From Lunularia cruciata (lineage: Eukaryota > Streptophyta > Marchantiopsida > Lunulariales > Lunulariaceae), in assembly GCA_948567375.1 (NCBI GenBank), contig OX419757.1:13654974-13718973 (forward strand): DNA of 64,000 nt, in the 5' to 3' direction. This document shows positions 8,412 to 64,000 of this stretch, one piece after another. The notes beneath the pieces were generated by a model. The model had not been told where the DNA came from. It worked only from the letters and a program-made list of their open reading frames with translations, and did not search any database. Every line of letters starts with the position of its first letter. Position 1 is the stretch's first letter. Both the position numbers and the translations under genes were made by a program.

Positions 8412-8412
8412 A

Positions 8413-8423
8413 TGGTATCAAAG
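8413..8423 (+). promoter_or_regulatory. Primer binding site of family B (initiator-Met tRNA-like)
   Basis: TGGTATCAAAG sits immediately inside the 5' LTR. It differs by one base from the usual plant initiator-Met primer site TGGTATCAGAG. The same sequence is at 41643 in copy 2. Confidence 0.8.
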
Positions 8424-10330: not shown

Positions 10331-10379
10331 GAAATAGAGTTACATAATGGTCAAACAAAAAGGATTGAGTAGTTACCTT

Positions 10380-10485
10380 TGTCGTGCGTATATACATTGC
10401 TACACAACATACATCACTATCAACATCATACACTATAAAAGCACAACTCACACATAAGTCATACATAGACTCTAAAGTGCCACAA
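10380..10485 (-). repeat. Terminal repeat B2 of DNMT element copy 1
   Basis: This 106-bp repeat forms the 3' end of the element. It matches B1 (10938-11043) with about five differences and the B units of copy 2 and copy 3. It abuts the CCTT target duplication. Confidence 0.92.
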
Positions 10486-10935
10486 TAATCACATTGCTTA
10501 ACACTTTCAACTCAACTCAACTCAGATCAGTACTTGATCTGTCACTCTATAAACTGCCAACAACTGGGCACTGATTATAGTCAAGCCACACCCACTCAAG
10601 CATAGAGAATCCAGGTGACGCTCGCCAGCCTTTGTCCACCATAGCCAGGAACTCGAAGGCTCAACATCAGAGAAGTGAGCTCTTTGGAGCTCACTTCGAA
10701 ACTATACCCCCCTGGACTTGAGCTAGCACTAGAACCCTAACGGTCCTGCTGACGGCACACTCGATGGTGCGAACGGTGCAAAGTGACGGTGGGCCCCACC
10801 GTGAAGTCAGTACCCTGAACACCAAATCAGACTATTGGAAACTAGTCCCTGAGAAACTACTAGAATAACTCTAACTATTATCACTGGAACTCTAGTGTCC
10901 GAGCAACTAGATGCGGAACTACAAATGGCGTGACA
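10486..10935 (-). repeat. Repeat A2 of DNMT element copy 1
   Basis: This 450-bp unit is the counterpart of A1 (20495-20943, 449 bp). It starts TGTCACGCC and ends CTGATTA in element orientation. It lies between B1 and B2. Confidence 0.92.
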
Positions 10936-10937
10936 GC

Positions 10938-11043
10938 TGTTGTGCGTATATACATCGCTACACAACATACATCGCTATCAACATCATACACTATAGAAGC
11001 ACAACTCACACATAAGTCATACATAGACTCTAAAGTGCCACAA
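10938..11043 (-). repeat. Repeat B1 of DNMT element copy 1
   Basis: This 106-bp unit lies directly downstream of the polypurine-like tract and upstream of A2. Two bases (GC, 10936-10937) separate it from A2, so the junction reads ACA-GC-TGT, a perfect 8-bp palindrome. B1 is nearly identical to B2. Confidence 0.92.
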
Positions 11044-11211
11044 TTGCTCCCCTAGCTGGCGGTTAGGTCCCTCTAACTCCAGATAGCCATCTACTCTAAG
11101 TATATGGTATACCCTCTAATGGGCAAAGATCAGGAGGCCGGGTGCTATGGAGCCCCATCGTTAGTCGCCTGTCTGCAATCTATACCATATAAAGAATGAA
11201 CTAGCTATAGG
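11044..11211 (-). promoter_or_regulatory. 3' untranslated segment with polypurine-like tract
   Basis: This is the stretch between the PHD stop codon and B1. The bases next to B1 read AGGGGAGCAA in element orientation (AGGGGGGCGA in copy 2), at the position where a plus-strand primer tract would sit. This suggests plus-strand synthesis starts at B1, although integration ends lie at A1 and B2 (inference). Confidence 0.6.
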
Positions 11212-11511
11212 TCAAGTACATCTAGGACATAACCACTGTCCTTGAGGAACCACCGTGAGGGGAGGAGTCATACATGCCATATGCCATCCTCTCGAACAGC
11301 TATCACACACTAACATAGTAGCAGCTCCACCAGAAGAGCCACATAACATACACCTCAAGCCTGCACGTACAAGTGCCAAGCTTGGGTCCATAGTACCATC
11401 AATGTTTGGGAGGTGGCATGGCGCACAATTGCGCACATGATCCTTCCAAACAACACCATCACGTCCTTCTAACACAAGGACTCCAGATGGCAAAATCTCA
11501 CGCACCCTCAA
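11212..11511 (-). pseudogene. PHD finger at the C-terminus of the retrotransposon polyprotein (copy 1)
   Basis: The 99 open codons carry a perfect Cys4-His-Cys3 PHD finger: Cys54, Cys57, Cys69, Cys72, His77, Cys80, Cys95 and Cys98, with GWH around the histidine and a W before the last CPRC. PHD fingers are zinc-binding readers, typically of histone H3 tails. The segment just upstream (RVREILPSGVLVLEG) is the end of the integrase C-terminal barrel-like module. In copy 1 a short deletion and a CAG-to-TAG change separate this frame from the integrase core, while comparison with copy 2 shows they were one frame. The position matches that of the chromodomain in chromoviruses, so a role in choosing insertion chromatin is likely (inference). 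Strict PHD spacing makes the call firm; histone preference is unknown. Confidence 0.9.
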
Positions 11512-12458
11512 GATAGTGCGGCCTGTAGAAACATCAAGTGTCGTCGGTGCTGTTTGCTATAGATATACATAGTCGCCTGGATGAAATCGACGGGTCTATA
11601 ACTTCCTCCTCGAATGGTAGCATAGCGTAAAGTATCTCTATGCTGAGCAATCACCAAGTTCTCAAAGGCCATCGGCATCACTCTCCGAAAGATCTCTGCC
11701 TGTTGAGAACATGCGCTCATCCACACATCGGGGTCATCCAAGTCCAAAACTACAGTAGCATCTTGACGAATGGCTGCAGGTAAATCTGGATCTCGTCCAT
11801 AGAGTAGAAAGTATGGAGAGAAGGATGCTAAGGAGGCTTGCCGGCTGAACCGATAGCCCATGGCCAACCAAGGTAACTGGAGATCCCAATCTCCCAAGTG
11901 GCCTCTCTGCAAACCATACTTTTGCAATCTCTTCTTCACCGTCTGAACCACTCTGTCTGCTAAGCCATCTGCCTCAGGGTGATCTCGGGATGTAGTACAA
12001 TGATCAATCAAAGCCTTGTCACACAAGACCTGAAACTCCCCCAAGAACTCTGTACCTTGATCAGTCAAAACCTCAGCTGGTGCACCAAAATGAGTAAGAA
12101 CTCGATCCAAGAACAAGTAAGCCGTCACTTCACTAGACTTGTTAGGAAGTGCCACCCACTCAATCCACTTGGAGAAGTGCTCCACCATCACCAAAACGTA
12201 CCGATGATGTCTCACAGTCAGCGGTAAAGGTCCGGCGAAGTCCAAACTCCAACGGTAATCCAATCCCATGATAGGTAATGGATGTAACTGTGGCATAGGA
12301 GCATTGAATGATGCTCTAACTTGGTCACAAACCATACATCTGGCAACAAACTGCTGTACCTCGGTCTGCATACCGCGCCACCAATAATGACTCTGGAGTA
12401 AGCTATATGTACGCTTCACTCCAAAATGTCCTAGCTCCTCATGAGCATGATGGACCAA
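11508..12458 (-). pseudogene. DDE integrase (copy 1)
   Basis: The segment has an N-terminal zinc-binding module (HEELGH, then CMVC) followed by the retroviral-type core. The first Asp is in SLDFAGP and the second in LTDQGTEF. At the third acidic position copy 1 reads GLADR where copy 2 reads GLAER, so the catalytic Glu is Asp in this copy. It joins linear element DNA to the host, in line with the 4-bp target duplications seen here. The final 30 or so residues are out of frame because of a small deletion relative to copy 2 (near 11590). It is inactive as it stands, but the family is clearly DDE and not tyrosine recombinase. Confidence 0.9.
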
Positions 12459-12467
12459 CTGTGGTCT

Positions 12468-12799: not shown

Positions 12800-14079
12800 C
12801 AACGTGCTCTGGTCTGATCCTGCTGGCTGGGACATGGGTTTCTACTCAACCCATCTGCATCACGGTTCACCACTCTAGGTCTGTGAACAACCGTGAAATC
12901 ATACTACTATAAAATCAGAGCCCATCATGCAAGCTTCCTTGAAAGCTTGTCAGACTCCATCAACCACTTCAGCGGCTGATGATCAGTGATGAGAGTGAAG
13001 GGGTTACCAAATAGGTAACATCGGAAATGTGCTATTGCCCAAACTGCTGCCAAGCACTCTCCCTCATATGAACTATACTTCGCCTCCGCTGAATTGTTGG
13101 AGCGACTAGCATAGGCCACCACAAACTCCTTCTCCTCATCATCATGCTGGGTGAGCACCGCTCCAAGCCCCAACATACTCCAATCAGTGTGAACCTGAAA
13201 TGGTCGTCCCTTGATCGGTCTCCTCAAAATAGGAGCAGATGTCAACCTCTCCTTGAGCTCTACAAAAGCTCTCTCCTGCTCATCTCCCCAACACCACTCA
13301 TGTGTAAGCTTAGTCAGCTTCATCAAGGCCTTGGCAATGGCACTAAATCCTCTAATATAGCAGCGATAGAAGTTTGCCAACCCAAGGAATGCTTGCACTC
13401 TGCTCACATCCGTAGGCCGAGGAATACGTGCAATAGCCTCCACCTTGGTCTGCTGAACACCAAGTCCTCCGGGGTAGATAGTGTGACCCAAATACTCAAC
13501 CTGCTTGTGGAAGAACCTACACTTCCCAGGATGTAGTTTGAGTCCATGAGATCTCAACCTCTCAAACACCTCCAACAACTGTCTCTCATGCTCCTCCACA
13601 GTAGTGCTATAGACCAAAATGTCATCAATATAACACCGAGGAAAATCCAATCCAGCTAGGATCCTATCCATGACCCTTTGGAACTCAGCAAGAGCGTTCT
13701 TCAACCCAAATGGTAAGAACCTCCATTGATATAACACATCCTTACCGTGAGGATCAATAGCCCAAAATGCTATCTTGGACTTATCTTCCTCCCTGATCGG
13801 CAACTGATGATATCCTGCTCGAAGATCCAAAGTACTGAAGACCTTTGCATGCCCAATCGCATCAAAAATCTCCTCCGGTGTAGGCATGGCATACCGATCA
13901 GCCCTGGTCTGTTGGTTGATAGGACGGTAATCTCCACACATCTGCCTATCTGTATAGTTGCCATGCATATCCTTCTGGGCTGGCATCACTGTCGCTGATG
14001 CATACTCTCTATGTGAAATCTCCACCAAACCAGCCTCAAAAAGGTCACTACTCCGGCTCTGAATCAATATCCTCTCCAT
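12800..14079 (-). pseudogene. Reverse transcriptase and RNase H (copy 1)
   Basis: This is a well-preserved Ty3/gypsy RT. The fingers block CGDYRPIN is followed by FSTLDLRAGYHQ, the FLPFGLKNA block and the catalytic YIDDILVYS (two Asp), then the thumb with YLGHTI and the connection. RNase H follows: an Asp in QVHTDWS, Glu in SSYEGECLA, and ITDHQPLKW. It copies element RNA into DNA. The frame stays open for 384 codons and then meets TAG near 12911, where copy 2 still reads CAA. The upstream part (about 14080-14310) carries the typical RT lead-in in another frame. It sits directly after the methyltransferase and its linker. Confidence 0.92.
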
Positions 14080-14442
14080 ATCACTATATCAATAAGGATG
14101 TCGGAAAACAGGTGTGTCGCTAGTCAGCTCAATCCGTATACCAAGTCCCTTCAGAGCACCCAAATCCTTCATACTGAAGGCAAAACAACTCGTGTGACTC
14201 CTCAAGAACCTCCAAACCCTCCGTCTTTCCTCTCCAGTAAGCTTGGGTCCAAGATCTGGCTCCCAAGTATCCTCTGTAACTGTAGTAGGAGTGGAAGATG
14301 TACTGATTGGCTGCTACACTGGGCCCTTGGGAGCAATAGTGTCATGCTCCCGACCACTAGAGGTCCCAACCTTTGTGTGAAAAACTCCCTCCACTCTGGC
14401 TGCAAGCTCCACACGTCCTCTAGCTGGATCCCATGTGGACCA

Positions 14443-14646: not shown

Positions 14647-15599
14647 ACCAAGGCTCACAATCCAGGTCAAACAGTTTAGGTCCATAGCTTGACCTAACAC
14701 CTGACGCCTGGATGCCTCTGACACTATTGGAACAACGGTAATACCGGTGCGAAAACCCATCACCCACTCTCTCTCATCAGCATTGGGCTCCACCAACTGC
14801 TGTAACTGTGAGTCCCAAACAGTCCAGGTCCTCCCTCTCAAAAAGCATGAGAGCCTGGGAAACTCATGAGTGTAGGAAATGCAGCTCTAGGCTGTCCAAC
14901 TAGGTTCACCACTGCCATAGGTGACCTATCAGCCACTACCATTGTCTGAGACTAACACCCAACATCCAAGATATCATCAACAAGAATGTGGTCTAGTCGC
15001 TGAATCCCATCATAACTACGCTGTAGAACCTCTCTGGGTAAAAAGTTTGTCCACCAAAGACAAAGACGATGAGCCCGTGATCCCACTCTGGCTGCATCTA
15101 ACAATACAGCAGGTCCCATCCATGAATGGACTTGATGTGTACTCGCCACCACTCTAGTGCAAGAATCACCCACCAATGGAACATTCTCCAAAAGGTAAGC
15201 TGGAGAAACAGACTGATGAACCTGGAGATGTCGTAGTATCCGTAACATCTCCCAAAACACACCAAAATGAGGATCTTGAAGACCCAAACCACGGCCCGCA
15301 CGTGTATGTCCCTGACATGGCCATCCAGAAATCACCAAGTGAATAGGCCCATGTCTCTCTAGGTCATGCACCCCCAATAAGGAAATGTCTCCTGGTAAGG
15401 CCTTCTGGTAACCTCTGACTAATGACATCGGTAATAACTCCGGATACCGATAGGCCAAGTGTGCTACATGATGTAGAGAGACTCACCTAGCAGTCTCATC
15501 TCTCTCTACATACAAGTACCTCTGTACTCGGATACCCGCCTGTAACACCGCAGCTAGTCCGGTGCCGATCCCACCAAACAACTCCAATAGGCATATCCC
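14647..15599 (-). pseudogene. DNMT3-like DNA cytosine-5 methyltransferase domain inside pol (copy 1)
   Basis: The domain spans about 317 residues between protease and RT. Motifs occur in the standard linear order. Motif I (LLELFGGIGTGL) binds S-adenosylmethionine. Motif II follows as YLYVERDE, then motif IV with the catalytic cysteine (ISGWPCQGH), motif VI (YLLENVP) and motif VIII (RAHRLCLWWTN, compare the RARYFWGN block of DNMT3). The C-terminal block MGFRTGITVVP...RRQVLGQAMDL corresponds to motifs IX-X. These spellings, GDISLL after motif III and the final block resemble DNMT3 more than DNMT1/CMT, and the motif order is not the rearranged order of DRM. Stops are few: CGA-to-TGA near 15483 and one between 14952 and 14841, plus a frameshift there. 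There is no ADD or PWWP domain. Expected activity: methylating cytosines in element or host DNA (inference). Confidence 0.92.
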
Positions 15600-20494: not shown

Positions 20495-20943
20495 TAATCA
20501 GATTGCTTAACACTTTCAACTCAACTCAACTTAGATCAGTACTTGATCTGTCACTCTATAAACTGCCAACAACTGGGCACTAATTACAGTCAAGCCACAC
20601 CCACTCAAGCATAGAGAATCCAGGTGATGCTTGCCGGCCTCTGTCCACCATAGCCAAGAACTCGAAGGCTCAACATCAGAGAAGTGAGCTCTCTGGAGCT
20701 CACTTTGAAACTATACCCCCTGGACTCGAGCTAGCACTGGAACCCTAACGGTCCCACTGACAGCACACTCAACGGTGCGAACGGTGCAAAGTGACGGTGG
20801 GCCCCACCGTGAAGTCAATACCCCAAACACCAAATCAGATTGTCGGAAAGTAGTCCTTGAGAAACTACTAGAATAACTCTAACTACTATCACTGGAACTC
20901 CAGTGTCCAAGCAACTAGATGCGGAACTACAAATGGCGTGACA
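20495..20943 (-). repeat. Terminal repeat A1 of DNMT element copy 1
   Basis: This 449-bp unit forms the 5' end of the element, starting TGTCACGCC. It ends CTGATTA and is followed directly by leader sequence, with no B unit after it. It contains the conserved AAGTGAGCTC inverted repeat. Confidence 0.92.
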
Positions 20944-21339
20944 CCTTGAAAGGTAACTCTCTCTACAAGAGAGTATCAAGGAGAGATTGAGTGGTGAGTG
21001 GTACAATTAGTTCATTATGATATGATCTTAAGCATGCAATGGATGGAGCACAATAGCCCCATAGTTGATTGGAGAAAGAAAGTAGTGAAAACTAGCCAAT
21101 GAAAGATCATTGGGGATATAGAAAGATTACAAAGGCAAGAACTTCCTCTCTATGTAATAAGGACAATAGTTATTGGTAGGACATATGGATGTTTCATGGG
21201 TCTAGTAAGAGAAGTCCAAAGTGCACAACTCAATAGACAAATTCTTGAGAATTTAAAAGATGTGGTCAATGAGTTTCAAGATGTCTTTCTTAATGATTTA
21301 CCCATAAGATTACCACCAAAAAGGAAAGTAAATAGCTAG
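20944..21339 (+). pseudogene. Family B copy 1 pol, segment between protease and RT
   Basis: Family B sequence resumes directly after the CCTT duplication and aligns with 43605-43985 of copy 2. It includes the segment ending TTACCACCAAAAAGG that precedes the RT. It has many stops. Confidence 0.75.
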
Positions 21340-29760: not shown

Positions 29761-31306
29761 AGATGCACATTATTTTTTTGGTAGTTTTGATTTAGTTACA
29801 ACTAGCTAAGTTTAGTAATAACTAATATAATATGGCTAGTAAAGAAAAAAAATCCAATATTTTATTATTGGATACTCAATAAGATTCCTAAAGGAATTTT
29901 AACTCAGATTATATATGAGTGATACCTCTTAACAAAATTTTAAATTAGAGTGTGACCTTGTAGGGAATTTTATATTAGATTATTTTGTAGTGAGATCTCC
30001 TTTGTTGACTTTTCATGGTCAAATTGACATGGTATAAAGTAGATGCAAAATTTTTATTATCTTGATTAAGTTTTGTGATCTGTGATAGTGGAGGTAGGAA
30101 TCTAGGAATTTCTCTTAATTAAAAAGTAATCAAACTAGATATTTAATTATGAGAATTTCCTAGATAGATAAAGGACCATTAATTCCAAAAGGTATGTGAG
30201 GCTAAAGACCATGTGAAAGCCTATTGAGAAAAGAGTCCTTATCTAAGGTAATTTAGGTAAATTATGGAATTTACTAAGCTACCAAGGCTTGTACTTATTG
30301 TGGTAACTTTGGTAAATATATAAGAGTGGCATAGAATTAGAAAGTCATCCATTCCTTCTTGATCTTGGAGCATAGGATGAGTCATGAGAACGAGGATTTA
30401 TATATACTCCCTATATATAGAAGGGAAAAACCAGATCCTCTCAACTTGAGATTACTATTATTATGGTTGTTGATGTTGAAGGAATCTCTAATTATAAAGG
30501 ATCCACTATTTGGATGTTTGTACAATCTTTTCTTTTAAGGCATTTTTAGGAGTTTTGACATAGTAAAGTGAATGCATGATATAAGGAATGAATGATAGAC
30601 TCTTTTTTTATTGTTATCCTTGATGGTGCTTGATACCAACTTTTCCTTCTCTTCTAGAACATGGTGCATATGAAAATTATCATTCAATATGCCTCGGTGA
30701 GAGGTATGATTAGCACATTTTCTTTTGATTGGCATGGTCTAGGATGTCCAACAAAAGATCTTAACAATGGGAGAAAAGGCAAACCCTAAACCCTAAACCT
30801 ACAAGCAAAGTCCACAAGAAGCTAAGAAGCAAAAGGAAGCAAAGTGGGTATATTAGACAATAGTGAAGAGTGTCTAAGAGGAAATGATAGTTCAAGTCCT
30901 CACATGCTTAGCCAAAAAGGACTTGATCTTGGATGGGACATGCAAGGAATACCATAAGGTTAACAATTCTTGTGCATTATATATATGATAAGATCCAAAT
31001 ACAAGTTGTTGTTGACAAGTGATTGGAAAGAGGCAATGAAGATGTACAATCTTCATTTCATTGAAAAAAAACTCTAAGAGCATTATATATTATTGCTTGT
31101 TTATGGTATCTACATTAATAAGCTTATGATTGTACTTTGCTTCAATAAATTATAAAATGTTTGCTTTATATTATGTTTGCCATTTTGTAGGAGGACAAAG
31201 ATGTACATGTCAAGAAGGAGGTAGTGGGCATAATGCCTTTTGCATGCAAGGAGAAGCTACAAGACAAAGCTTTGGTTGAAAAGGTGAAAAAATTGGCAAT
31301 AGAGCT
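29761..31306. other. Intergenic DNA with a telo-box and an open stretch split by insertion
   Basis: At 30781-30799 lies AAACCCTAAACCCTAAACC, a double telo-box of the kind common in plant promoters and 5' leaders. From 31193 a frame preceded by TTTTGTAG is open through 31306. After removal of DNMT copy 2 and one AGCT it continues into 41225 for a few more codons (about 45 in all), Lys/Glu-rich. It could be an exon of an unrecognised gene, but no other exon is evident. Confidence 0.35.
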
Positions 31307-31755
31307 TGTCACGCCATTTGTAGTGCCGCATCTAGATGCTCGGACACTGAAGTTCTAGTGATAGTAGTTAGAGTTATTTCAGCAATTTCTCAGCGACTAC
31401 TTTCCGACGGTTAGATTTTGTGTTTGGGGTACTAACTTCACGGTGGGGCCCATCGTCACTTTGCACCGTTTGCACCGTTGAGTGTGCCGTCAGCGGGACC
31501 GTTAGGGTTTCAGAGCTAGCTTGAGTCCAGGAGGTATAATTTCAAAGTGAGCTCCAGAGAGCTCACTTCTCTGATGTTGAGCCTTCGAGTCCTTGGCTAT
31601 GGTGGACAGAGGCTGGCGAGCGTCACTTGGATTCTCTATGCTTGAGTGGGTGTGGCTTGACTGTAATCAATGCCCAATTGTTGGCAGTTTATAGAGTGAC
31701 AGATCATGTACTGATCTGAGTTGAGTTGAGTTGAGAGTGGTAAGCAATCTGATTA
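31307..31755 (+). repeat. Terminal repeat A1 of DNMT element copy 2
   Basis: This 449-bp unit is exactly as long as A2 (40649-41097) and as A1 in copy 1. It is followed directly by CATCAGAGAAGTG (possible primer site). No B unit follows it. Confidence 0.93.
31545..31568 (+). promoter_or_regulatory. Perfect hairpin in repeat A
   Basis: Two 10-bp arms, AAGTGAGCTC and GAGCTCACTT, are separated by a 4-base CAGA loop. The hairpin is kept in A2 of copy 2 (near 40887) and in A1 of copy 1 (near 20684-20707). Conservation in the terminal repeat suggests an RNA signal (transcript end, dimerisation or packaging), which is inference. Confidence 0.6.
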
Positions 31756-33062
31756 CATCAGAGAAGTGAAGTCACGGGGAAATCGGGTGCAAGAACTATG
31801 AGTGTTGGTGGTATCTCCAAGCTCGATGGATCGTTGGTAGCTCGATTCAAGTTTAGTGTTTCCCTAGTGTGTAGAAGCTCAATTGATTGATGCAGATTTG
31901 GCAGTTAGTCGGACGGTGTGCGGAAGCGTTGGCCAAATTTTGAGCAAAGAAGGAGCAAATTTTGAGTAGTGTTGTGATTTTGAGCTCAGGAGGTGAAGGC
32001 ATGACCAATTTGCTACGAGTTGGGCTCAGAAAGTCAAATTGAAGGTGGAGTTGGGAAGCTCTTCTCATGAAATTGTGATTTGGAAAAACCTGTTTTGTCA
32101 ATTTGGCTCGAGTGGAAAGTTAGCGGGGGATTTGGCGGACAACCATCTTTAGGGTTTACGTCAGGATTTACGTCAGATTTTGGTTGGGATTTACGTTAGA
32201 TTTTGGCCAGAATTGGAGGATTTTTTGCTGTTTGGCCAGATTTGGAGGAGTTTTGCTAGTTTGGAGGACTTTTGTAGATTTGGAGAAGTTTCACCAATTT
32301 TGGAGGAGGTTCGAAGTGGCAACAAGAATGGCTGAATTTTAGCATTTAGAGGCTTTGAGGCATAGGGCTAGCTAGTTTAGAGTAGATCTTGGTCATTGGT
32401 TAGCAAAATCTGCCTTTCTTGCTAGATTGCGCGCAACAGGGTTTGACCTTTAGATCTCTTGTTCCTAGACTGGTGCCCTAGCCAACTGGTCCACCCTCAC
32501 TTGTTGTCCTAGTGACTGTGCCACTATTATCTATACACATGTAGCTTTGGCTAGGAGGGGCAGTTTGATCCCATTCTTGGTGATCCTGGTAGCTTAGGAC
32601 ATAGATACGAACTTCTCTTATGTCAAATACCAAATGGTGGCAGAGTCAATCTTGTGTTGTGTTATAAGATGGAGTGTTTTTGTTTAGATTTCTTGTGATT
32701 GGACCCCCTCCATTCTCTACTTCCTATCTGTGCACCATGTTTGTGTGAGGTGCCTTGACTTTTGAGCGTTGGTGCTCTGGTGTGCTCTCGGTGGTGAGGC
32801 TGGAGTGATGACCAGTCAGACTACCTTTGTTTCTCTCCGGTGAGGCAAGAAGTGATGACCTGCAGACCGTGAGAGTGCGTGTTATGATGGTAGGTTACAT
32901 CTTGCCCTTTCCCCTAGTGTAGTTATCTCGGTTAGAGTTACATTAATGGGTGGTGCTTAGTTGGTGTTGGCACGTGGTGGTGTTGGCACTTGGTGGGGTA
33001 CTTGCGGTTGCAACTTGCGGCTGCAATTGGTGGTTTGGGTTTGCTGTTGTGGTTACTTTGTC
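31756..33062 (+). other. 5' leader of DNMT element copy 2
   Basis: This is 1.3 kb of non-coding leader. It contains the same short tandem repeats as copy 1 (about 32150-32310) and lacks the solo LTR found in copy 1. The empty site for that LTR is the single GGTC before CTGCAGG's complement, near 32855-32870. Confidence 0.7.
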
Positions 33063-34099
33063 ATGATGGAGTTCTTTGGAGATTCCAGAGGAGTTAGCCC
33101 TACAGTACGCAATGGGTTTACTCGGAGTGGTGCTTGGTATCAGCCTGTATCTCAAGTCCTAGTGAGGGAGGAGATTGACTCTGAGTTGGAGTTCGACACA
33201 GGAGCTGATTCAGTTGAGAGTGCACTTGGTGTGTCCGTACCGTTGTTGTGTGACATGGACAAGATTTATGGGGCCTCCAAAGGCCCTAGGTGTTACTGTG
33301 GTACAGTGGGTACCATTGAGTTGGATGACTTCATCCAAGAGTTTGACAGTTGGTGTGATTTGTAGCAGATGCGGAACCCGACTTTGTTCACACCCTTCAT
33401 GGCATGGAAGGGGTTGTTTCAATATCTGGAGGGTCCACCGATGGATGACTACCATGAGTTCAGGAGAGCTCATTTGGAGGAGATTGAGTTATGGAGACAA
33501 TATTGGTCTCCACATTATGTCTCCATCACTTCAGGCTTGGTGGCTAAGAGTAGATTGACTGTACCTACGAGTTCTAGCTCGAGTAGTGGAGGTGGAGCTA
33601 GTGGAGGTGGAGCTAGTGGAGGTGCACTAGCTAGAGATAGTGCTACTATGAGTGGAGGTACCGTTGTAGGAGGTGGTGTGGTATCGGGGTTTAACCCATG
33701 GTGGAGTTCTTCCTATGTTTGAGGCAGAACTACCAGGGAGTGCGGATTGACAAGCTGAGGAGCTTGCAGGAGTTCCAGCGGAAGACTGGAGAGAGCCTAC
33801 GTGAGGCATACACTCGCATGAGGCGACTGATCGGTTTCACTCAGGGAGTTGCTGAGGCCCAAGCAGTCCAGTTTTGGTATGGGATATTGGACAGGGAGTT
33901 ACGTTGTAGAGTTCGTGATGCTACGTTGTTGCAGGCTACTTCGCTCACTTTGGCAGTAGTCTTTGGTTTGGTTGAGCGTATTGAGCTCAATATGGTGGAG
34001 GAGAGAGTGGTGACATCTGGATTTGATAGGGAGACCTCATCCACAGTTGTGACTTCTTCTAGAGTGCAGCAGAGTGCACCACGCCCAGTTGGTTTTTGA
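33063..34099 (+). pseudogene. Gag capsid region (copy 2)
   Basis: The likely start is the double ATG at 33063/33066 (MMEFFGDSRG). The acidic N-terminal part is interrupted by TAG at 33363-33365 (CAG in copy 1). A 1-base deletion near 33697 shifts the frame just before the capsid block FFLCLRQNYQG. The capsid block runs to TGA at 34097-34099 (CGA in copy 1). The content equals copy 1 Gag, including the Ser/Gly-rich linker, which has one extra GASGG unit here. Confidence 0.85.
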
Positions 34100-34381
34100 G
34101 GACAGGGTGGATAGCCCAAATCCTATGGAGCGAGTGGAGGGCCTAGTGGAGTTAGACCCTTACCCTCATTTTTGGGTCAGCAGCAACCAGTAAGTGGTGG
34201 TGTTGCTTGTTGGACTTGTGGTGGGCTTCACCATAGGAGAGAGTGTACTCAAGGCAACGGACTTGATACCTTTGGTGGATCACAGTTAGCATAGAGGCAG
34301 TGTGAGCATTGCCACAGATTTGGTCACACTAGTGACTGGTGTTTTGACCTACACCCGGAGTTACGGAGTGGTAGGGCTGCT
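34100..34381 (+). pseudogene. Nucleocapsid with two zinc knuckles (copy 2)
   Basis: Both knuckles survive: CWTCGGLHHRREC and CEHCHRFGHTSDWC. The second is a perfect CX2CX4HX4C. Two TAG codons replace glutamines. The frame runs on without a shift into the protease region, showing that gag and pol were one frame with no programmed frameshift. Confidence 0.85.
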
Positions 34382-35832
34382 ATGGCAGGTAGTAGAGGAG
34401 CTCCAGTTCATGGAGGACAAGGTGGTAGAGGTGGTGGTAGAGGATCTACACCTAGTAGGGGTGCAATACCTGCCCTTACTTCTGACACAGCTATGGCTAC
34501 TCGGATTGAGCAGTTGGAGCAGAGATTGGCTAGTATGGCTATTGCTCAAAGGAGATCAGATTCGGATGCTGAGGCTTCCACCTCATATGCTGGTGATAGA
34601 GATGCTTTGGACTTCATGTGCGGAGCAGCACAAGTGGATGCATCTGCAACAGTGACTAGGAGTGCAGTACGTGCTCCAGAGCCTAGAGGAGCATCAGTGG
34701 GTTGGACCCACAGAGAGGAGAGGTTGGGAGATAGGTCAGACTTCCCCAGTCTTTCACGCTATCTGAGGCATTGCAGACAACATCCATGGTTCCTAGACGT
34801 CCAAGTGCATGTGTGGTAGGTGGTGATGGAGTACATGATGGACTACTTGCTAGTCAGCCACCTGCTACTACAAAGACTGAGTCTAGCATGATGTTGGGGG
34901 CGGCTCAACTGATTATGCAGCGTCCTTTGTTTTCAGCTAGTGACATGTTTACATTGGGAGTTGACCCAATCCCAGTGTTCCAGTTGGCTGCCACGTTGTG
35001 TGAGAGTAGGGATGGTGCCGTTCCTACTACTAGAGAAGAGGTGGTTGGTAGTGGAGCTGACTTGGTTGAGGAGCATGGGATCCATTCAGCAACCAGTGGT
35101 TTATGGCAGGCAGCAGCGACTAGACTGGAGGAGTTGCCAACTAGACCGGCCTTTGAGAGAGCACGGTTTACACCTGGTGTTGTCCTATTGGATAACCAGA
35201 GGGGGATTTCTTTTTTGGTGGGACCTTCAAGGAAGGTCTATACACCATAGAGAGTCTTGTTAGACTCTGGTGCGTAGCTCCTTATGTTGGGGAAGGCTGC
35301 AGTTGTCGGTCTAGAGTTACGGAAGACCGATGTGGAGAGGTGTCCATTTCAAATCCGGACATCTCTAGGTGGTGGTTCAACACAATACATCACACGTGGG
35401 AAGCTTGTTGTCTAGTTTCAGCCTGGTCATCCGACTGATAGCTCGGTGGTGAGAGCTCAAGCTATTGCGACGATAGCTGAGTCATATGATGTGCTAGTTG
35501 GGGGAGCAGTGTTATACCCCATGGGTTTCAGCATTGACTATTGGGAGGAGATAAACTCTTATAGACCTGGTTGGCAGTCTGGTGAGGGATGGGTATGTTG
35601 CCTACCAATATGCTTCAGTAGTGGCAGTCTTGGCTCACTACAGTCCGAGACCATAACAACATCAGTTTTAGCTTTTAGTGGTGTAGTTACTTGGCTTGGT
35701 GACTTGTTGGAGGGGAACGCCCATGCAGAGGATACTCTAGTACCAGAGGAGATCACTCAGCTTTGGAGTACGAGTAGGATTGTTCCATCCACCTTGGATG
35801 TTTCATTGTGGAGTTCAGAGGAGGCATTGTAG
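34382..35832 (+). pseudogene. Aspartic protease region (copy 2)
   Basis: The active site is RVLLDSGA with the canonical Asp-Ser-Gly-Ala. The next residue is a TAG where copy 1 has CAG. The second loop DVLVGGAVLYPMGF matches copy 1. A small deletion near 34695 shifts the frame. The segment ends at TAG 35830-35832 and then continues in the same frame into the methyltransferase. Confidence 0.85.
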
Positions 35833-35973
35833 CAGCATGCAGATCAGTTGGTACAACAAGCTTGGAGTGGAGCCTTTGTACCATCAGGAGATGAGTGTGA
35901 GGATGAGCCTCCAGAGGCAATTGCTTTGACACCTCTAGATACCACACTCATTGCTTGGCAGTATCCAGTAGAG

Positions 35974-36928
35974 GGGATATGCCTATTGGAGTTGTTTGGT
36001 GGGATCAACACCGGACTAGCTGTGGTATTATAGGCGGGTATCCGAATACAGAGGTACTTGTATGTAGAGAGGGATGAGACTGCTAGGCGAGTCTCTCTAC
36101 ATCATGTGGCACACTTGGCCTATTGGTATCCAGAGTTATTACCGATATCAGCAGTCAGAGGTTACCAGAAGGCCGTACCAGGAGACATTTCCTTACTGGG
36201 AGCGCATGACCTAGAGAGACATGGGCCTATTCACTTGGTGATTTCTAGATAGCCATGTCAGGGACACACATGTGCAGGCCACGGTTTGGGTCTTTAGGAT
36301 CCTCGTTTTGGTGTGTTTTGGGAGATGTTACGGATACTACGACATCTCCAGGTTCATCAGTTTGTTTCTCCAGCTTACCTTCTGGAGAATGTTCCTTTGT
36401 TGGGTAATTCTTGCACCAAAGTGGTGGCGAGTACACATCAGGTCCATTCTTGGATGGGACCTGCTATATTGTTAGATGCAGCCAGAGTGGGATCACAGGC
36501 TCATCATCTTTGTCTTTGGTGGACGAACCTCTTACCTAGAGAGGTTCTACAGCGTGCTTATGATGGGATTCAACGACTGGACCACATTCTTGTTGATGAT
36601 ATCTTGGATGTTGGGCGTCAGTCTAAGACAGTGGTAGTGGCTGATAGGTCACCTATGGCAATGGTGAACCTAGTTGGACAGCTTAGAGCCGCATTTCCCA
36701 CACTCATGAGTTTCCCAAGCTCTCATGCTTTTCGAGAGGGAGGACCTAGACTTGTTTGGGACTCACAATTACAGTAGTTGGTGGAGCCCAATGCTGATGA
36801 GAGAGAGCGGGCGATGGGTTTTTGCACCGGTATTACCGTTGTTCCAGTAGTGTCAGAGGCATCCAGGCGTCAGGTGTTAGGTCAGGCTATGGACCTGAAT
36901 TGTTTGACCTGGATTGTGAGCCTTGGCT
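35974..36928 (+). pseudogene. DNMT3-like DNA cytosine-5 methyltransferase domain (copy 2)
   Basis: About 318 residues lie in one frame throughout, interrupted only by stops. Motif I is LLELFGGINTGL and motif II YLYVERDE. Motif IV keeps the catalytic cysteine (PCQGH), but the preceding Trp codon is TAG. Motif VI is YLLENVP, motif VIII AHHLCLWWTN, and the C-terminal block MGFCTGITVVP then RRQVLGQAMDL. Unlike copy 1 there is no frameshift inside the domain, so the two copies together define the ancestral layout. It lies between protease and RT. The motif-I change from GIG to GIN and loss of an Arg in motif VIII may reflect decay. Confidence 0.92.
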
Positions 36929-37041
36929 TGGCAGAGCAGCATAGGATGTGCTTGATACGCATCACCACTCGGACACTTGTGAGCCTTGTGCATATCGAGA
37001 CGATTCAGGCACATGTTGGGGGCGATCGACCAAGTGGACAT

Positions 37042-37131
37042 GGTATTCTTGGGACACATCTAGTAGCTACTAGGGAGAGTGGTCTACTTGGAGTCCATCC
37101 AGGTGAGCGTGGGCTACTTGGATTACACCCT
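37042..37131 (+). repeat. Three GxLGxHP peptide repeats in the DNMT-RT linker (copy 2)
   Basis: The repeats GILGTHL, GLLGVHP and GLLGLHP stand at the positions equivalent to copy 1. They lie in an open frame (36778-37260) that joins the end of the methyltransferase to the RT lead-in. Confidence 0.7.
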
Positions 37132-37260
37132 TGGTCCACATGGGATGCAGCTAGAGGACGTGTGGAGCTTGCAGCCAGAGTGGAGGGAGTTTTTCACACA
37201 GAGGTTGGGACCTCTAGTGGTCGGGAGCATGACACTATTGCTCCTAAGGGCCCAATATAA

Positions 37261-38760
37261 CAGTTAGTCAGTACGTCTTCCACTCCTACTACAGTTACAG
37301 AGGATACTTGGGAGCCAGATCTTGGACCCAAGCTTATTGGAGAGGAAAGACAGAGGGTTTGGAGGTTCTTGAGGAGTCACACGAGTTGTTTTGCCTTCCG
37401 TATGATGGATTTGGGTGCTCTAAAGGGACCTGGTATACGGATTGAGCTGACTAGCAATACACCAGTTTTCCGACGTCCTTATCAATATAGTGAGATGGAA
37501 AGGACATTGATTTAGAGCCAGAGTAGTGACCTTTTTGAGGCTGGTATGGTGGAGATTTCACATGGAGAGTATGCATCAGCGATAGTGATGCCAGCCAAGA
37601 AGGATATGCATGGTAACTATACAGATAGGCGGATGTGTGGAGATTATTGTCTTATTAACCAACAGACCAGGGCTGATCGGTATGCCATGCCTACACCAGA
37701 GGAGATTTTTGATGCGATTGGGCATGCAAAGGTCTTCAGTACTTTGGATCTTTGAGCGGGATATCATCAGTTGCCGATCAGAGAGGAGGATAAGTCCAAG
37801 ACAACATTTTGGGCTATTGATCCTCATGGCAAGGATGTGTTATATCAGTGGAGGTTCTTGCCATTTGGGTTAAAGAACGCTCCTGCTGAGTTCCAGAGGG
37901 TCATGGATAGGATCCTAGCTGGATTGGATTTTGCTCGGTGCTATATTGATGACATCTTGGTTTATAGCACTAATGTGGAGGAGCATGAGAGACAGTTGTT
38001 GGAGGTGTTTGAGAGGTTGAGATCTCATGGACTCAAATTACATCCTGGGAAGTGTAGGTTCTTCCATGAGCAGGTTGAGTATTTAGGTCACACTATCTAC
38101 CCCGGGGACTTGGTGTTCAGTAGACCAAGGTGGAGGCTATTGCACGTATTCCTTGGCCTACAGATGTGAGCAGAGTATGAGCATTCCTTGGGTTGGCAAA
38201 CTTTTATTGCCGCTATGTCAGAGGATTTAGTGCCATTGCCAAGGCCTTGACAAAGCTGACCAAGCTTACAAAGGAGTGGTGTTGGGGAGATGAGCAAGAG
38301 AGAGCTTTTGTAGAGCTCAAGGAGAGGTTGACATCTGCTCCTATTTTGAGGAGATTGATCAAGGGACGGCCATTTCAGGTTCACATTGATTGGAGTATGT
38401 TGGGGCTTGGAGCGGTGCTCACCCAACATGATGATGAGAGGAAGGAGTTTGTGGTGGCCTATGCTAGTCGCTCCAACAATTCAGCGGAGGCAAAGTATAG
38501 TTCATATGAGGGAGAGTGCTTGGCAGCAGAGTGGGCAGTAGCACATTTCTGATGTTACCTATTTGGTAACCCCTTCACTCTCATCATTGATCATCAGCTG
38601 CTGAAGTGGTTGATGGAGTCCCACAAGCTTTCAGGGAAGCTTGCACGATGGGCTCTGATTTTACAAGAGTATGATTTCACGGTTGTTCACAAACCTGGAG
38701 TGGTGAACCGTGATGCAGATGGGTTGAGTAGAAACCCATGTCCCAGCCTGTAGGATCAGA
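37261..38760 (+). pseudogene. Reverse transcriptase and RNase H (copy 2)
   Basis: The order is the same as in copy 1: CGDYCLIN, a broken LDLRAGYHQ block (CGA-to-TGA at 37753-37755), FLPFGLKNAP, catalytic YIDDILVYS and YLGHTIYPG. A 1-base deletion near 38105 shifts the frame. RNase H continues from 38193 with the Asp of VHIDWS, the Glu of SSYEGECLA and, after TGA near 38550, IIDHQLLKW. Both RT catalytic aspartates are intact in the sequence but the frame is not. Confidence 0.9.
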
Positions 38761-38795
38761 CTGGAGCACGTTGGCATGGTGAGATACATGAGGAG

Positions 38796-39092
38796 ATGGT
38801 GCCAAGTTGGCATACATCAGCCTTTTTGTGTATATTTGCAAAGGCTTTGGTGATATCTCTCTCTGAGCATACAAGAGGAGTTATTGAGGTCACAGATCCA
38901 GAGAGTGAAGATATCGTCACAGTTCAGCGAGACGTTCATGATGATGTCTTAGTGATGGACTATCTTTGCACTGGTGTTGTGGGTGGCACAATTGGGGCCA
39001 AGGAGAGAGACCATGTTCTTCAGCAAGCCAGGCGGTTCAGATTGGAGGGTAGACACCTTTGCGTGTATGGGAGGATGGTAGAGTGCGAGTAG
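38796..39092 (+). pseudogene. RNase H-integrase linker (copy 2)
   Basis: It matches 12468-12782 of copy 1. A small deletion near 39060 shifts the frame before the integrase. No motif of its own. Confidence 0.65.
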
Positions 39093-39118
39093 TACCACTT
39101 CTAGCACAGAGACCATAG

Positions 39119-40060
39119 TTGGTCCGTCATGCTCATGAGGAGCTAAGACATTTTGGAGTAAAGCATACATATAGCTTACTCCAAAGTCATTATTGGTGGC
39201 ACGGTATGCAGACCGAGGTACAACAATTTGTTGCTAGACGTATGGTTTGTGACCGAGTTAGTGCATCATTCAATGCTCCTACGCCACAGTTACACCCATT
39301 ACCTATCATGGGATTGGGTTACTGTTGGAGTTTGGACTTTGCCGGACCTTTACCGCTGACTATGAGACATCATCGGTATGTTTTGGTGATGGTGGAGCAC
39401 TTCTCCAAGTGGATTGAGTTGGTGGCACTGCTTGACAAGTCTAGTGAAGGGACAGTGTACTCGTTCTTGGATTGAGTTCTTAGTCATTTTGGTGCACCAG
39501 CTGAAGTTTTGACTGATCAGGGTACAGAGTTCTTGGAGGAGTTTCAGGTCTTATGTGACAAGGCTTTGATTGATCATCGTACTACATCTTGAGATCACCC
39601 TGAGGCAGATGGATTAGCAGAGAGAGTAGTTCAGATGGTGAAGAGAGGATTGCAAAAGTATGGTTTGCAGAGAGGCCACTTGGGAGATTGGGATCTCCAA
39701 TTACCTTGGTTGGCCATGGGCTATCGGTTCAGCCGGCAAGCCTCCTTAGCATCCTTCTCTCCATACTTTCTACTCTATGGACAAGATCCTGATTTATCTA
39801 CATCCATTCGTCGAGATGCTACTGTAGTTTTGGACTTGGATGACCCCGATGTATGGATAAGCGCATGTTCTTAACGGGCAGAGATCTTTTGGAGAGTGAT
39901 GCTGATGACCTTTGAGAACTTGGCAATTGCTCAGCATGGAGATACTTTACGCTATGCTACCATTCGAGGAGGAGGTTATAGACCCTCAATCCATCGATTT
40001 CATCTAGGCGACTATGTATATCTACAGTAGACAGCACCGATAACACTTGATGTTTCTACA
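39119..40060 (+). pseudogene. DDE integrase (copy 2)
   Basis: The zinc module has HEELRH and a second Cys pair in which the first Cys is Arg (RRMVCDR). The core has SLDFAGP, LTDQGTEF and GLAERVVQ, so all three acidic catalytic positions (Asp, Asp, Glu) are present. Two CGA-to-TGA stops (near 39474 and 39590) and others break the frame. The C-terminal part keeps HRFHLGDYVYL, the usual start of the barrel-like module, before passing to the PHD segment. Together with copy 1 this proves the family used a DDE integrase. Confidence 0.9.
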
Positions 40061-40072
40061 AGCCGCACTATC

Positions 40073-40372
40073 TTGAGAGTGCACGAGGTTTTGCCATCTG
40101 GAGTCCTTGTGTTAGAAGGACGTGATGGTGTTGTTTGGAAGGATCATGTGCGCAATTGTGCGCCATGCCACCTTCCAAACATTGATGGTACTATGGACCC
40201 AAGCTTGGCACTTGTACGTGTAGGCTTGAGGTGTATGTTATGTGGCTCTTCTGGTGGAGCTGCTATTATGTTAGTGTGTGATAGCTGTTCGAGAGGATGG
40301 CATATGGCATGTATGACTCCTCCTCTCACGGTGGTTCCTCATGGACAATGGTTATGTCCTAGATGTACTTGA
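40073..40372 (+). pseudogene. PHD finger at the polyprotein C-terminus (copy 2)
   Basis: This is 99 residues with the same eight zinc ligands as copy 1 at identical spacing (C-x2-C-x11-C-x2-C-x4-H-x2-C-x14-C-x2-C). Only a few residues differ between the copies. It is in frame with the integrase C-terminal module, separated by a single TAG in place of Gln. It ends with the natural TGA after CPRCT. Confidence 0.9.
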
Positions 40373-40529
40373 CTTATAGCTAGTTCATTCTTTATATGGT
40401 ATAGATTGCAGACAAGCGACTAACGATGGGGCTCCATAGCACCCGGCCTCCTGATCTTTGCCCATTAGAGCGTATACCATATACTTAGAGTAGATGGCTA
40501 TCTAGAGTTAGAGGGACTTAACTGCCAGC

Positions 40530-40540
40530 TAGGGGGGCGA
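40530..40540 (+). promoter_or_regulatory. Polypurine-like tract before B1 (copy 2)
   Basis: AGGGGGGCGA lies directly upstream of B1, the counterpart of AGGGGAGCAA in copy 1. Its place suggests a plus-strand priming site at the start of B1. Confidence 0.55.
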
Positions 40541-40648
40541 TTGTGGCACTTTAGAGTCTATGTATGACTTATGTGTGAGTTGTGTTTCTATAGTGTATGA
40601 TGTTGACAGCAATGTATGTTGTGCAGCAATGTATATACGCATGATAGT
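40541..40648 (+). repeat. Repeat B1 plus 2-bp spacer (copy 2)
   Basis: A 106-bp unit ending GCATGATA is followed by GT and then A2. It is homologous to B2, which has one extra unit of about 17 bp (a GATGTATATTGTGTAG-like repeat). Confidence 0.9.
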
Positions 40649-41097
40649 TGTCACGCCATTTGTAGTGCCGCATCTAGATGCTCGGACACTGGAGTTCCAG
40701 TGATAGTAGTTAGAGTTATTTCAGTAGTTTCTCAACGACTACTTTTTGACGGTTAGATTTTGTGTTTGGGGTACTGATTTCATGGTGGGGCCCACCATCA
40801 CTTTGCACCGTTTGCACCGTCAAGTGTGCCGTCAGCGGGACCGTTAGGGTTTCAGAGCTAGCTCAAGTCCAGGGGGTATAATTTCAAAGTGAGCTCCAGA
40901 GAGCTCACTTCTCTAATGTTGAGCCTTCGAGTTCCTGGCTATGGTGGACAGAGGCCGGCGAGCATCACCTGGATTCTCTATGCTTGAGTGGGTGTGGCTT
41001 GACTGTAATCAATGCCTAGTTGTTGGCAGTTTATAGAGTGATAGATCAAGTACTGATCTGAGTTGAGTTGAGTTGAGAGTGGTAAACAATCTGATTA
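40649..41097 (+). repeat. Repeat A2 (copy 2)
   Basis: This 449-bp unit starts TGTCACGCC and ends CTGATTA, and is followed directly by B2. Confidence 0.93.
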
Positions 41098-41220
41098 TTG
41101 TGGCACTTTAGAGTCTATGTATGACTTATGTGTGAGTTGTGTTTCTATAGTGTATGATGTTGACAACGATGTATATTGTGTAGCAATGTATGTTGTGTAG
41201 CGATGTATATATGCACAACA
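41098..41220 (+). repeat. Terminal repeat B2 (copy 2)
   Basis: This 123-bp unit starts TTGTGGCAC and ends GCACAACA, and abuts the AGCT target duplication. Confidence 0.92.
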
Positions 41221-41308
41221 AGCTCAATATGGCAAGTTTGTCTATTTAATTTTTCTTTTATTTCTTGGTATAAGAATACAAAATCTTGGAAGAAGTGAAT
41301 ATGGATGA

Positions 41309-41641
41309 TGTAATAACAATAGCTAGACATATTATATAGAGATAGAATTAGGGTTTAAGGTCTCATTGAGAACTTTCTAATAGTACCTCACCCATATGAT
41401 TTTGAGCATTCTATAGGAATATTCCATAAATATTTCCTCTATTCAAACTTGTTTGACCAACTAGATAGGACAAGGACCAACATGTCACCCATCCATGCAA
41501 CTAATCTAAGGGTGGAGCTTCCTTTGAGGGGATCTTCTTTGTTATATAATAAAGACAAGGTGCTCTTTTGAGGCATATGAGTACTCTATGATGAATCTTT
41601 GTGTTTCTCTTGAGGTTTCTCCTATTCTCAAAAAAATTACA
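41309..41641 (+). repeat. Family B copy 2, 5' LTR with internal deletion
   Basis: It starts TGTAATAACA and ends ATTACA. Compared with the 3' LTR, a block after the first 45 bases is missing. TATATAATAAAG is retained. Confidence 0.85.
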
Positions 41642-42239
41642 ATGGTATCAAAGTAGGTGTTTTAATCCAAGAGAGTGAAACCTCTTGGAGGAACACATGC
41701 TATTGAGATTGAGTAATTTTGAGAGGAGAAAACATAGTGCAATTGATAGACTAAAGGTGGTGTTTTAGAGAGAAGATGGGATAGAGGCACCTAGAAGACA
41801 ATTTACTACACCTCACTTTCCATTCTTGAATCCATTCCACATCAAGATTATGTACATATAGCATGAGCAAGTAAGAGTATATATTGTTTATCATTTTGGA
41901 ATAGAGTTCATGGACATAATAATGAATTCACCAAACCCAATGATTTTACCTATGGTGATATATAATAGAGAGTGGGATTTGACAATCTACATTCTATTAT
42001 GATGCAATGGATCTGAATATCCTTTCCCTTTCAACATGCAAGTAGACATCCATTATGTTGTTAGACCAAAAGTGATTTTTAGGGATTTTGTAGTCCACAA
42101 TTTTGGTGAGGAATATTATCAATGAGTTATAGCCTCTGAGGTCTCAATAGTAGTCCTAATTGTTGTTATCCCTTCTTGGAATGATCATATTAACCCTCTA
42201 TTGAAGGAGGAAATAGTGATTGAGTGTTTGATGTGTGTA

Positions 42240-43560
42240 CAAATCATGGAGCTATAGTTGTAGGATCTGATGCAAGGAATGCAGGGGATGTTGAACAAGT
42301 TTTGAGAGATCAAGATGACCATGAAGGCATTGAAAATTCAAGTATGTACCTTTAGGAACAATCAAGCAATGAAAGAAGGGGAACCATCCCAAAACTTGGT
42401 ACCAACGGCCAAAGTACTTAGAGAGTCAGTCATGCCAATGATACCAACCCTAGTCAACAATGAAGCCACATTGTCATTATGGATAAAGAAGATGTGCAAC
42501 ATCAAGCCTTATAAGGGACAATGTTCCATGAGAGCAATGGAAAATTGGATTTCAAGAATGAATCTATATTTTCAATTATTCACAACTGAGATCACCAACC
42601 ATTCCGCAAGCATGTTTGCATGTGGGTACTTGACCTATAAAGCCCTGATATGGTATGATGCTTGGGAAAAATCAATGTTAGCAAAAGGAAGAGAGATAAC
42701 ATGGATGGTAATGCAAGAAAGGCTACTAAAGAATTTTCAATCCATGGATTCTATGTAGATGCAGAATCCGACTATGGAGGTTGAAGCAAACAAATAGCAT
42801 ACAAGAGTATATGGATGCATTTCTTGATATATAGGTGGTGATAATTGATATGAGTCCAACAAAAGCTCTTGAAAATTTCAAATGGGGGTTAAAAGAGCAA
42901 ATTCATCTAGAGATAATGGTACAAAATCCTCATATTTTTTTGAAGCCATTGCCTACGCTCAAAGAATAGCATGGGTGCTTTAAGGAGGTGAAAGTGTAGT
43001 CTTGAGTCAACACTATCAAGCTCAAACACTGCACTTTGGTGGACTAGTTCCTATGGTATTGGGCAACATTCAGTTCTAAGATTGAGTAGCATGATTGCTC
43101 CAAGGAGAACAAGGGCGGGTCAAAGAAAGGAGAGATGGAGTCCCACAAGGAGAAGGGGCTTGAGCAAAAAAATAATGTTTCTACAATTATAGCTGAGTTG
43201 AGCACATTACCATAAATTTTCATACTTTTCTTCCTAGAGGTCCTTGGCCTCCATACAAGTAACCTTTGAACAACATGGAGAGACAAATTGAAGAGAATGA
43301 TATTGAAATTACATTGAAAAACAAAGATTGCCAATAAATGTACCTTATGTCCTTATATGCTCAATACAGAAGAGTAAAAGCAAGGAGAGGAAGAGAAAGA
43401 GTGTGCAAAGGTGGAGGAAAACAAATGCACAACTAATTGCCATAAATGGAGTCTTAAAAGACAATCATGTGAGAGTATTAATAGACCTTGGAGCAACAAA
43501 GAATTTTTCATCTTGTTTTGTTGCAATAAGGAGATGGAACTAGAGAAAGATAAAAATAAT
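42240..43560 (+). pseudogene. Family B copy 2 gag and protease remnant
   Basis: The longest open stretch (42315-42758) contains the Gag core: WIKKMCNI, AMENWISRMNLYF, LIWYDAWEKS and the ITWMVMQERLLKNF block. After a stop the basic region and a damaged zinc knuckle follow. The protease site at 43328-43543 reads VRVLIDLGATKNF, with Asp kept and Ser replaced by Leu. It is broken by stops but is the best guide to the interrupted copy 1. Confidence 0.8.
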
Positions 43561-43604
43561 ATGAAGTAGAGTTACTTAATGGTTAGACTGAGAGGATTGA
43601 ATCA

Positions 43605-63850: not shown

Positions 63851-64000
63851 TGTTGTGCATATATACATCGCTACACAACATACATCGCTGTCAACATCAT
63901 ACACTATAGAAGCACAACTCACACATAAGTCATACATAGACTCTAAAGTGCCACAATAATCAGATTGTTTACCACTCTCAACTCAACTCAACTCAGATCA
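63851..64000 (-). mobile_element. DNMT element copy 3, 3' end only (cut by the window)
   Basis: On the minus strand this is B2 (63851-63956, 106 bp, ending GCACAACA) followed by the start of A2 (from 63957). The B2-A2 order at the outer edge is the same as in copies 1 and 2. The left host flank is CTCTA; the matching duplication lies outside the window. Confidence 0.9.

Follow-up and report, generated by a model that had tools for sequence, protein, structure and literature searches.

A split-repeat Ty3/gypsy-type retrotransposon of Lunularia cruciata that probably integrates in rotated form through joined long terminal repeat ends

Layout and coding content of the element in the window

We analysed a 64,000-nucleotide (nt) stretch of the genome of the liverwort Lunularia cruciata (assembly GCA_948567375.1, contig OX419757.1, positions 13,654,974 to 13,718,973; hereafter the window, whose own numbering is used below). 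It contains two full copies and the end of a third copy of a retrotransposon that encodes Ty3/gypsy-type proteins and carries split direct repeats, an arrangement that we think probably reflects integration in rotated form via joined long terminal repeat (LTR) ends, with the cut made in the LTR beside the primer site. The plus-strand copy (31307-41220), read in the sequence and by self-comparison, has the order A1, internal region, B1, A2, B2. A1 and A2 are both 448 nt, A1 running to CTGATT, which bears out the original prediction of a single A at the 5' end, B1-A2-B2 at the 3' end and two As of equal length. A1 and A2 are 93.8% identical and B1 and B2 95-96%; B2 of this copy measures 124 nt and by eye holds a small internal duplication, the reference B, from the second copy, being 107 nt. 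Self-comparison of the window revealed another full copy, the second, in identical order on the minus strand (20943-10380), and a third of which only the end is included (64000-63851). The 3' terminus is A2-B2 in all three, and both full copies start with TGTCAC and end with CACAACA or CACGACA. The features are as follows.

31303..31306, no strand: left target duplication of the plus copy, AGCT (read in sequence)
31307..31754, +: A1, plus copy, starting TGTCAC (sequence and self-comparison)
31563..31577, +: proposed self-primer segment within A1, reverse complement of the primer site (complement match and shuffles)
31755..31769, +: primer binding site ACATCAGAGAAGTGA, directly 3' of A1 (complement match)
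37756..38166, +: reverse transcriptase piece, plus copy (Pfam RVT_1)
39119..39472, +: integrase piece, plus copy (Pfam; H2C2 above cut-off, rve E 0.0016, below cut-off)
40031..40369, +: PHD finger, 3' of the integrase, plus copy (Pfam PHD)
40528..40539, +: purine-rich tract GCTAGGGGGGCG, abutting B1 (read in sequence)
40540..40646, +: B1, plus copy (sequence and self-comparison)
40647..40648, +: 2-nt spacer GT between B1 and A2, centre of the proposed integrase site (read in sequence)
40649..41096, +: A2, plus copy (sequence and self-comparison)
41097..41220, +: B2, plus copy, ending CACAACA (sequence and self-comparison)
41221..41224, no strand: right target duplication of the plus copy, AGCT (read in sequence)
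20496..20943, -: A1, second copy (self-comparison)
14955..15482, -: C5 cytosine methyltransferase piece, second copy, closest in PDB to DNMT3A (Pfam PF00145 E 4.6e-6; PDB E 4e-4, weak)
12928..14088, -: reverse transcriptase and RNase H, second copy (Pfam)
11511..12467, -: integrase, second copy (Pfam; H2C2, rve E 1.5e-12)
11215..11556, -: PHD finger, second copy (Pfam)
10938..11044, -: B1, second copy (self-comparison)
10936..10937, -: spacer GC, second copy (read in sequence)
10487..10935, -: A2, second copy (self-comparison)
10380..10486, -: B2, second copy (self-comparison)
10376-10379 and 20944-20947, no strand: target duplication of the second copy, AAGG (read in sequence)
63851..64000, -: A2 end and B2 of the third copy, cut by the window end (self-comparison)

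We scanned 20 translated pieces of the two full copies, covering part of the reading frames, against Pfam. Domains matched in the second copy were DNA methylase, reverse transcriptase (RT), RNase H, the zinc-binding and core domains of the integrase, and a PHD finger. For RT, integrase and PHD the plus copy gave the same result, and its methyltransferase pieces gave no Pfam match. RT and RNase H precede a DDE (rve) integrase, the order of Ty3/gypsy elements, and the predicted DDE integrase and Ty3/gypsy-type RT are both found as Pfam domains in the two copies. By eye, the catalytic residues of the D, D, E motif can be read, the final E being present in the plus copy and replaced by D in the second. 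Neither a tyrosine recombinase domain nor a chromodomain was found in the pieces scanned, which do not include every frame. Chromoviruses carry a chromodomain C-terminal of the integrase, where the PHD finger sits here, and this finger could aim integration at marked histones. Among named relatives of the RT, the nearest come from the liverworts Calypogeia fissa (78%) and Riccia sorocarpa (84%, covering a third of the query), followed by Marchantia (57%). Among solved structures the methyltransferase piece is nearest to DNMT3A, an assignment to Dnmt3 that rests on weak PDB matches; its named relatives are from Sphagnum and Marchantia paleacea.

The second copy is inserted in a repeat, and an unfilled counterpart of its target site lies near 43607-43610. 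Repeats at 8256-10378 and 41482-43610, about 77% alike, flank the copies, one of them being that target. Pieces of a GH3-family host gene lie at 52809-54661 (+).

End structure of genomic copies

A search of the 565.8-megabase genome (74 contigs) with A1 gave 6,663 first-look candidates, of which 40 were scored: one was the window's own, six stopped at the A end or close to it and were left out, and 33 reached past A1. Both 5' and 3' ends were retrieved for these 33 loci, a sample biased toward copies resembling those of the window. The 3' end is B1-A2-B2 in 24 of them, or 26 copies with the two from the window; in the other nine no 3' end lay within the retrieved stretch, and the full listing shows no alternative 3' end type. 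Our script scored a copy only if B stood on both sides of A2, so the count of 26/26 for B-A-B is partly by construction. True 5' ends number 31 of the 33, the remaining two (L054 and L056) being 3' ends caught by the A1 search because primer-site bases come after their A2; seven true A1 loci show no 3' end in the retrieved stretch. B precedes A1 in none of the 31 readable 5' ends, nor in the two window copies. Two complete identical LTRs, the ordinary Ty3/gypsy arrangement against which the original prediction had set this layout, were present in no copy among those fetched, and no 5' end carried a complete BA. At one locus (L022) a B-A-B was found 17 kilobases downstream, as if after a later insertion, and may belong to the same element.

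A second sample of 40 loci, selected by an intact B-A junction pattern, comprised 37 with internal-B-A-B, two with internal-B-A-B-A-B and one with internal-B-A-leader-B. Tandem 3' ends holding three Bs and two As (B-A-B-A-B) were seen at L079 with L113 and at L108 with L114. A-B-A-B, suspected in two of the 40 loci, was rejected: both are 3' ends carrying one additional A-B unit, a form that could also arise from unequal crossing-over of B1 with B2. Genome-wide, the B-A junction has 2,406 matches at ≤3 mismatches and its reversed control 0. An older, diverged copy (L035, 2190-3110) is likewise B-A-B; hence, the split layout seems old in this lineage. We also considered an ordinary A-B LTR that had lost its 5' B, and rejected it, as readable copies include no other 5' or 3' end type. 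We conclude that the split layout is real and general among the copies read, and the PAT/Ngaro-type repeat order originally noted holds in all 26 copies with a readable 3' end.

Target duplications, also anticipated, accompany most of these insertions. The script found exact 4-base-pair (bp) duplications in 20 of the 26 copies, window copies included, and reading by eye raised this to 22 by adding the plus copy and L004; two further copies have a duplication with one mismatch and two have none. Mismatched partners gave 3/650. Short duplications and TG...CA ends are as in Ty3/gypsy elements.

Priming, the reverse-transcribed LTR and the two joints

By the usual rules of reverse transcription, a purine tract and a primer site mark the boundaries of the LTR. 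The purine-rich tract GCTAGGGGGGCG, or a near form of it, abuts B1 in genomic copies as well as in the window. The 15-nt sequence ACATCAGAGAAGTGA, directly 3' of A1, has its reverse complement within A (at position 257), as in Tf1-like self-priming, where the site can pair with the 5' region of the element's own RNA; among 5000 shuffles, a match of 14 or 15 nt arose 0 times, of 13 nt once and of 12 nt five times. The site is exact in 29 of the 33 A1 loci, with one mismatch in three and six in one, and the self-primer segment is exact in 23/26 A1 and 23/26 A2. A canonical tRNA primer was rejected, since by eye there is no TGG-type site at the A1 end and the self-complement fits better. With the purine tract before B1 and the primer site after A1, the reverse-transcribed LTR is therefore read as B-spacer-A: the product should be BA-internal-BA, with a predicted LTR of 557 bp (B, 2-nt spacer and A). 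It follows from the sequence that the integrated form is rotated relative to that LTR. A primer with its 3' end paired to base one of the site would begin DNA synthesis at CTGATT, the A2/B2 boundary in most copies read. Within copies, A1 and A2 differ by 0.030 on average, against 0.044 for shuffled partners (26 copies), and B1 and B2 by 0.019 against 0.026 (23 of 26 copies, three with short or broken B excluded); 0/5000 shuffles reach either value. The closeness of the two pairs appears to be as for LTRs remade every cycle.

The two internal boundaries behave differently. The A2/B2 joint reads CTGATT/ATTGTGG in most copies, and 6 of 70 sequence matches have an insertion at precisely this point (A, A, C, G, T and ACATC). 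ACATC is primer-site sequence and is what brought its copy, L056, into the sample; the two copies with an extra A lie fairly near one another (A2 rank 2 of 25, A1 rank 6 of 25) and therefore may share one event. Elsewhere in the 120-base stretch around this joint, insertions fall in a GAGTT microsatellite and, besides, affect one base at two positions and five at a third. At B1/A2, 0 of 73 matches show a change in length, substitutions being the only differences. Because 40 of the B-A loci were chosen by an intact pattern, the fair comparison is 3/26 for A2/B2 against 0/24 for B1/A2, a difference that is small alone. Four more copies hold, between A2 and B2, a stretch that is leader in whole or for the most part: L054 (104 nt), L070 (89 nt), L071 (119 nt) and L085 (432 nt), of which L085 alone comes from a sample not selected for run-on. 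These run-ons point to occasional extension of the right DNA end beyond the primer site. At a further locus (L069, 1945-2300), A2 and primer-site bases are followed by what by eye appears to be antisense internal sequence of the element, like a self-insertion or a template jump. Our reading is that A2/B2 would be newly made at each insertion, and B1/A2 copied.

The B1/A2 junction is the proposed integrase site. Its spacer is GC in 19, AC in four and TC in one of 24 genomic copies, and 17 of the 24 junctions are the perfect 10-base palindrome GACAGCTGTC. The window junctions are AACAGCTGTC in the second copy and GATAGTTGTC in the plus copy.

A route to the rotated form and its relation to known systems

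We propose the following route, which we consider likely. A 5' segment of the RNA would fold onto the primer site and prime minus-strand DNA, as in Tf1, and reverse transcription would yield BA-internal-BA. Host end joining would then connect the A end to the B end, creating A2/B2. The DDE integrase would cut both strands at CA^GC^TG in the LTR beside the primer site, a double cut that would leave 2-nt overhangs and so two processed ends at once, and would insert these with a 4-bp stagger to give A-internal-BA-B. The remaining B-A junction would be kept inside the element and simply copied onward. Joining of LTR ends is strongly indicated, and the inserted form looks hard to make other than through an A-B end joint; we infer the polarity, the order of joining before cutting, the involvement of a circle and the role of the integrase as cutter. 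The simplest path would be the one the original prediction imagined, a two-repeat circle that is opened within the repeat. In vitro, palindromic LTR-LTR junctions are cut by the integrases of foamy virus and human immunodeficiency virus 1 (HIV-1), in both strands and 3' of CA, and foamy virus integrase leaves a 2-nt overhang (PMC1180852, PMC1905944), by analogy the geometry that the proposed cut would need.

Several points weigh against this route. The primer segment varies less than most of A and is not exceptional (rank 46 of 435 windows). The closest A2 of an A1 is its own in only 6/26 copies, because many copies are nearly alike, and it is the mean test that carries the point. The accepted precursor in the retroviruses studied is linear DNA (PMC11054761), and our model is drawn from sequence. 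Above all, a circle would have two identical B-A sites, so ABA-internal-B and A-internal-BAB are expected equally, and the mirror form ABA-internal-B was not found among exact patterns, which cover only part of the copies. The exact B-A-primer-site pattern has four matches against 419 for B-A-B; all four are 3' ends with primer-site or leader sequence after A2, two of them with no B2 behind. The cut is therefore always primer-side in the copies seen, or cutting and joining are otherwise coupled. A plain circle model thus requires an added polarity rule, at which we can only guess (the primer-side LTR might become double-stranded first, the other being still single-stranded), and this is the main unexplained point.

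If cutting came first, the integrase would cut the primer-side LTR of linear BA-internal-BA at its near-palindrome and insert A and short B ends, and the host would join the free A and B ends on the chromosome. That sequence of events accounts for the insertions and leader run-ons at the joint and requires no circle, but would leave an open chromosome break at each insertion, with the choice of one LTR equally unexplained; it would end in a sequence identical to that of the joined-ends route, from which the present data do not separate it, and we regard it as unlikely. We give still less weight to a PAT-like route, in which reverse transcription itself would make A-internal-BA-B with the internal B-A as splint, a DDE integrase having replaced the tyrosine recombinase. 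Its repeat order would be that of PAT and Ngaro (PMC4157794), yet A2/B2 would then be copied, whereas some copies hold primer-site and leader bases there, and a purine tract before B1 with a primer site after A1 is what ordinary LTR synthesis would use. A tyrosine recombinase from another element would account for the repeat order only; 4-bp duplications, the element's own integrase domain and the lack of a recombinase domain in the 20 pieces, a partial set of frames, make its involvement very improbable. Least credible of all is rearrangement or misassembly of an ordinary A-B LTR element: although A2-B2 alone resembles a TG...CA LTR, the same order recurs at many unrelated sites, each with its own duplication, and the junction has 2,406 matches.

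In the 1980s joined LTR ends were debated as the integrase precursor, and for the viruses studied the debate ended in favour of linear DNA (PMC11054761). Should the joined-ends route be right, the element would use one that its textbook relatives are not thought to use, while being very common in its genome. It might even be a natural Panganiban-Temin element, with joined LTR ends as its sole chromosomal route and a near-palindromic site inherited in the LTR, one of two identical sites being picked by some rule; this stronger form we advance tentatively, at rather less than even chances. A bolder speculation is that the element's own cytosine methyltransferase could mark the site copy to be spared, like a restriction-modification pair; 20 of the 24 junction strings have a CG to either side of the site. 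In any case, the old precursor question becomes testable in a plant, in an element whose junction is matched 2,406 times in a single genome, and a split-repeat layout does not require a tyrosine recombinase. A 2019 paper describes methyltransferase-bearing transposons of this sort as absent from land plants (PMC6338049); the Dnmt3-like methyltransferase in a Gypsy element of a liverwort (14955-15482, -) runs contrary to that statement. The features first noted in this DNA, namely its domains, duplications and repeat order, and a circle as the simplest path, are supported, and the accompanying claim of no precedent is not, as set out below.

Known systems resemble the element in different respects. 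Copy-out-paste-in insertion sequences use a DDE enzyme and a circle with abutted ends, whose junction, with a gap of a few bases, is the substrate; unlike the element here, they are DNA transposons without reverse transcription. PAT/Ngaro retroelements are not known to make a target duplication. Our element shares their split direct repeats, and PAT also has a putative methyltransferase (PMC4157794); it differs in its DDE integrase, 4-bp duplications and gypsy-type RT, and no encoded tyrosine recombinase was found in the pieces scanned. With Tf1/sushi and Tcn1 it has in common a primer site complementary to its own sequence and not to a tRNA (PMC6317226), whereas its integrated LTRs are rotated and, in the pieces scanned, it has a PHD finger and no chromodomain. 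The Panganiban-Temin circle model and the two-LTR circles cut in foamy virus and HIV-1 work offer a CA/TG-flanked palindromic junction as integrase substrate (PMC1180852, PMC1905944, PMC11054761), in foamy virus with 2 nt between, as here (PMC1180852, PMC1905944). In those viruses the site is made by LTR end joining; here it would lie inside the LTR and be inherited.

The closest likeness is to KnitGypsy-Dnmt3 of Klebsormidium nitens, which the legend of Fig. 4 in De Mendoza et al. 2018 describes as having the repeat structure of a DIRS retrotransposon and typical Gypsy domains (PMC5890265). Our limited literature search found this combination in that legend only, and it answers the claim that no DDE element with such a structure had been described. 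The terms 'phd' and 'target site' have 0 matches in the main text of that paper, and in the portion available to us we found no analysis of target duplication, primer, mechanism, joint or integrase site. A K. nitens protein with an RT domain, not identified as part of KnitGypsy-Dnmt3, is 49% identical to our RT piece. Both elements combine Gypsy domains, a Dnmt3-type methyltransferase inside pol and a DIRS-like repeat order (PMC5890265). KnitGypsy-Dnmt3 is present in fewer copies than in Symbiodinium, according to the Discussion of that paper, and the Lunularia element has 2,406 junction matches.

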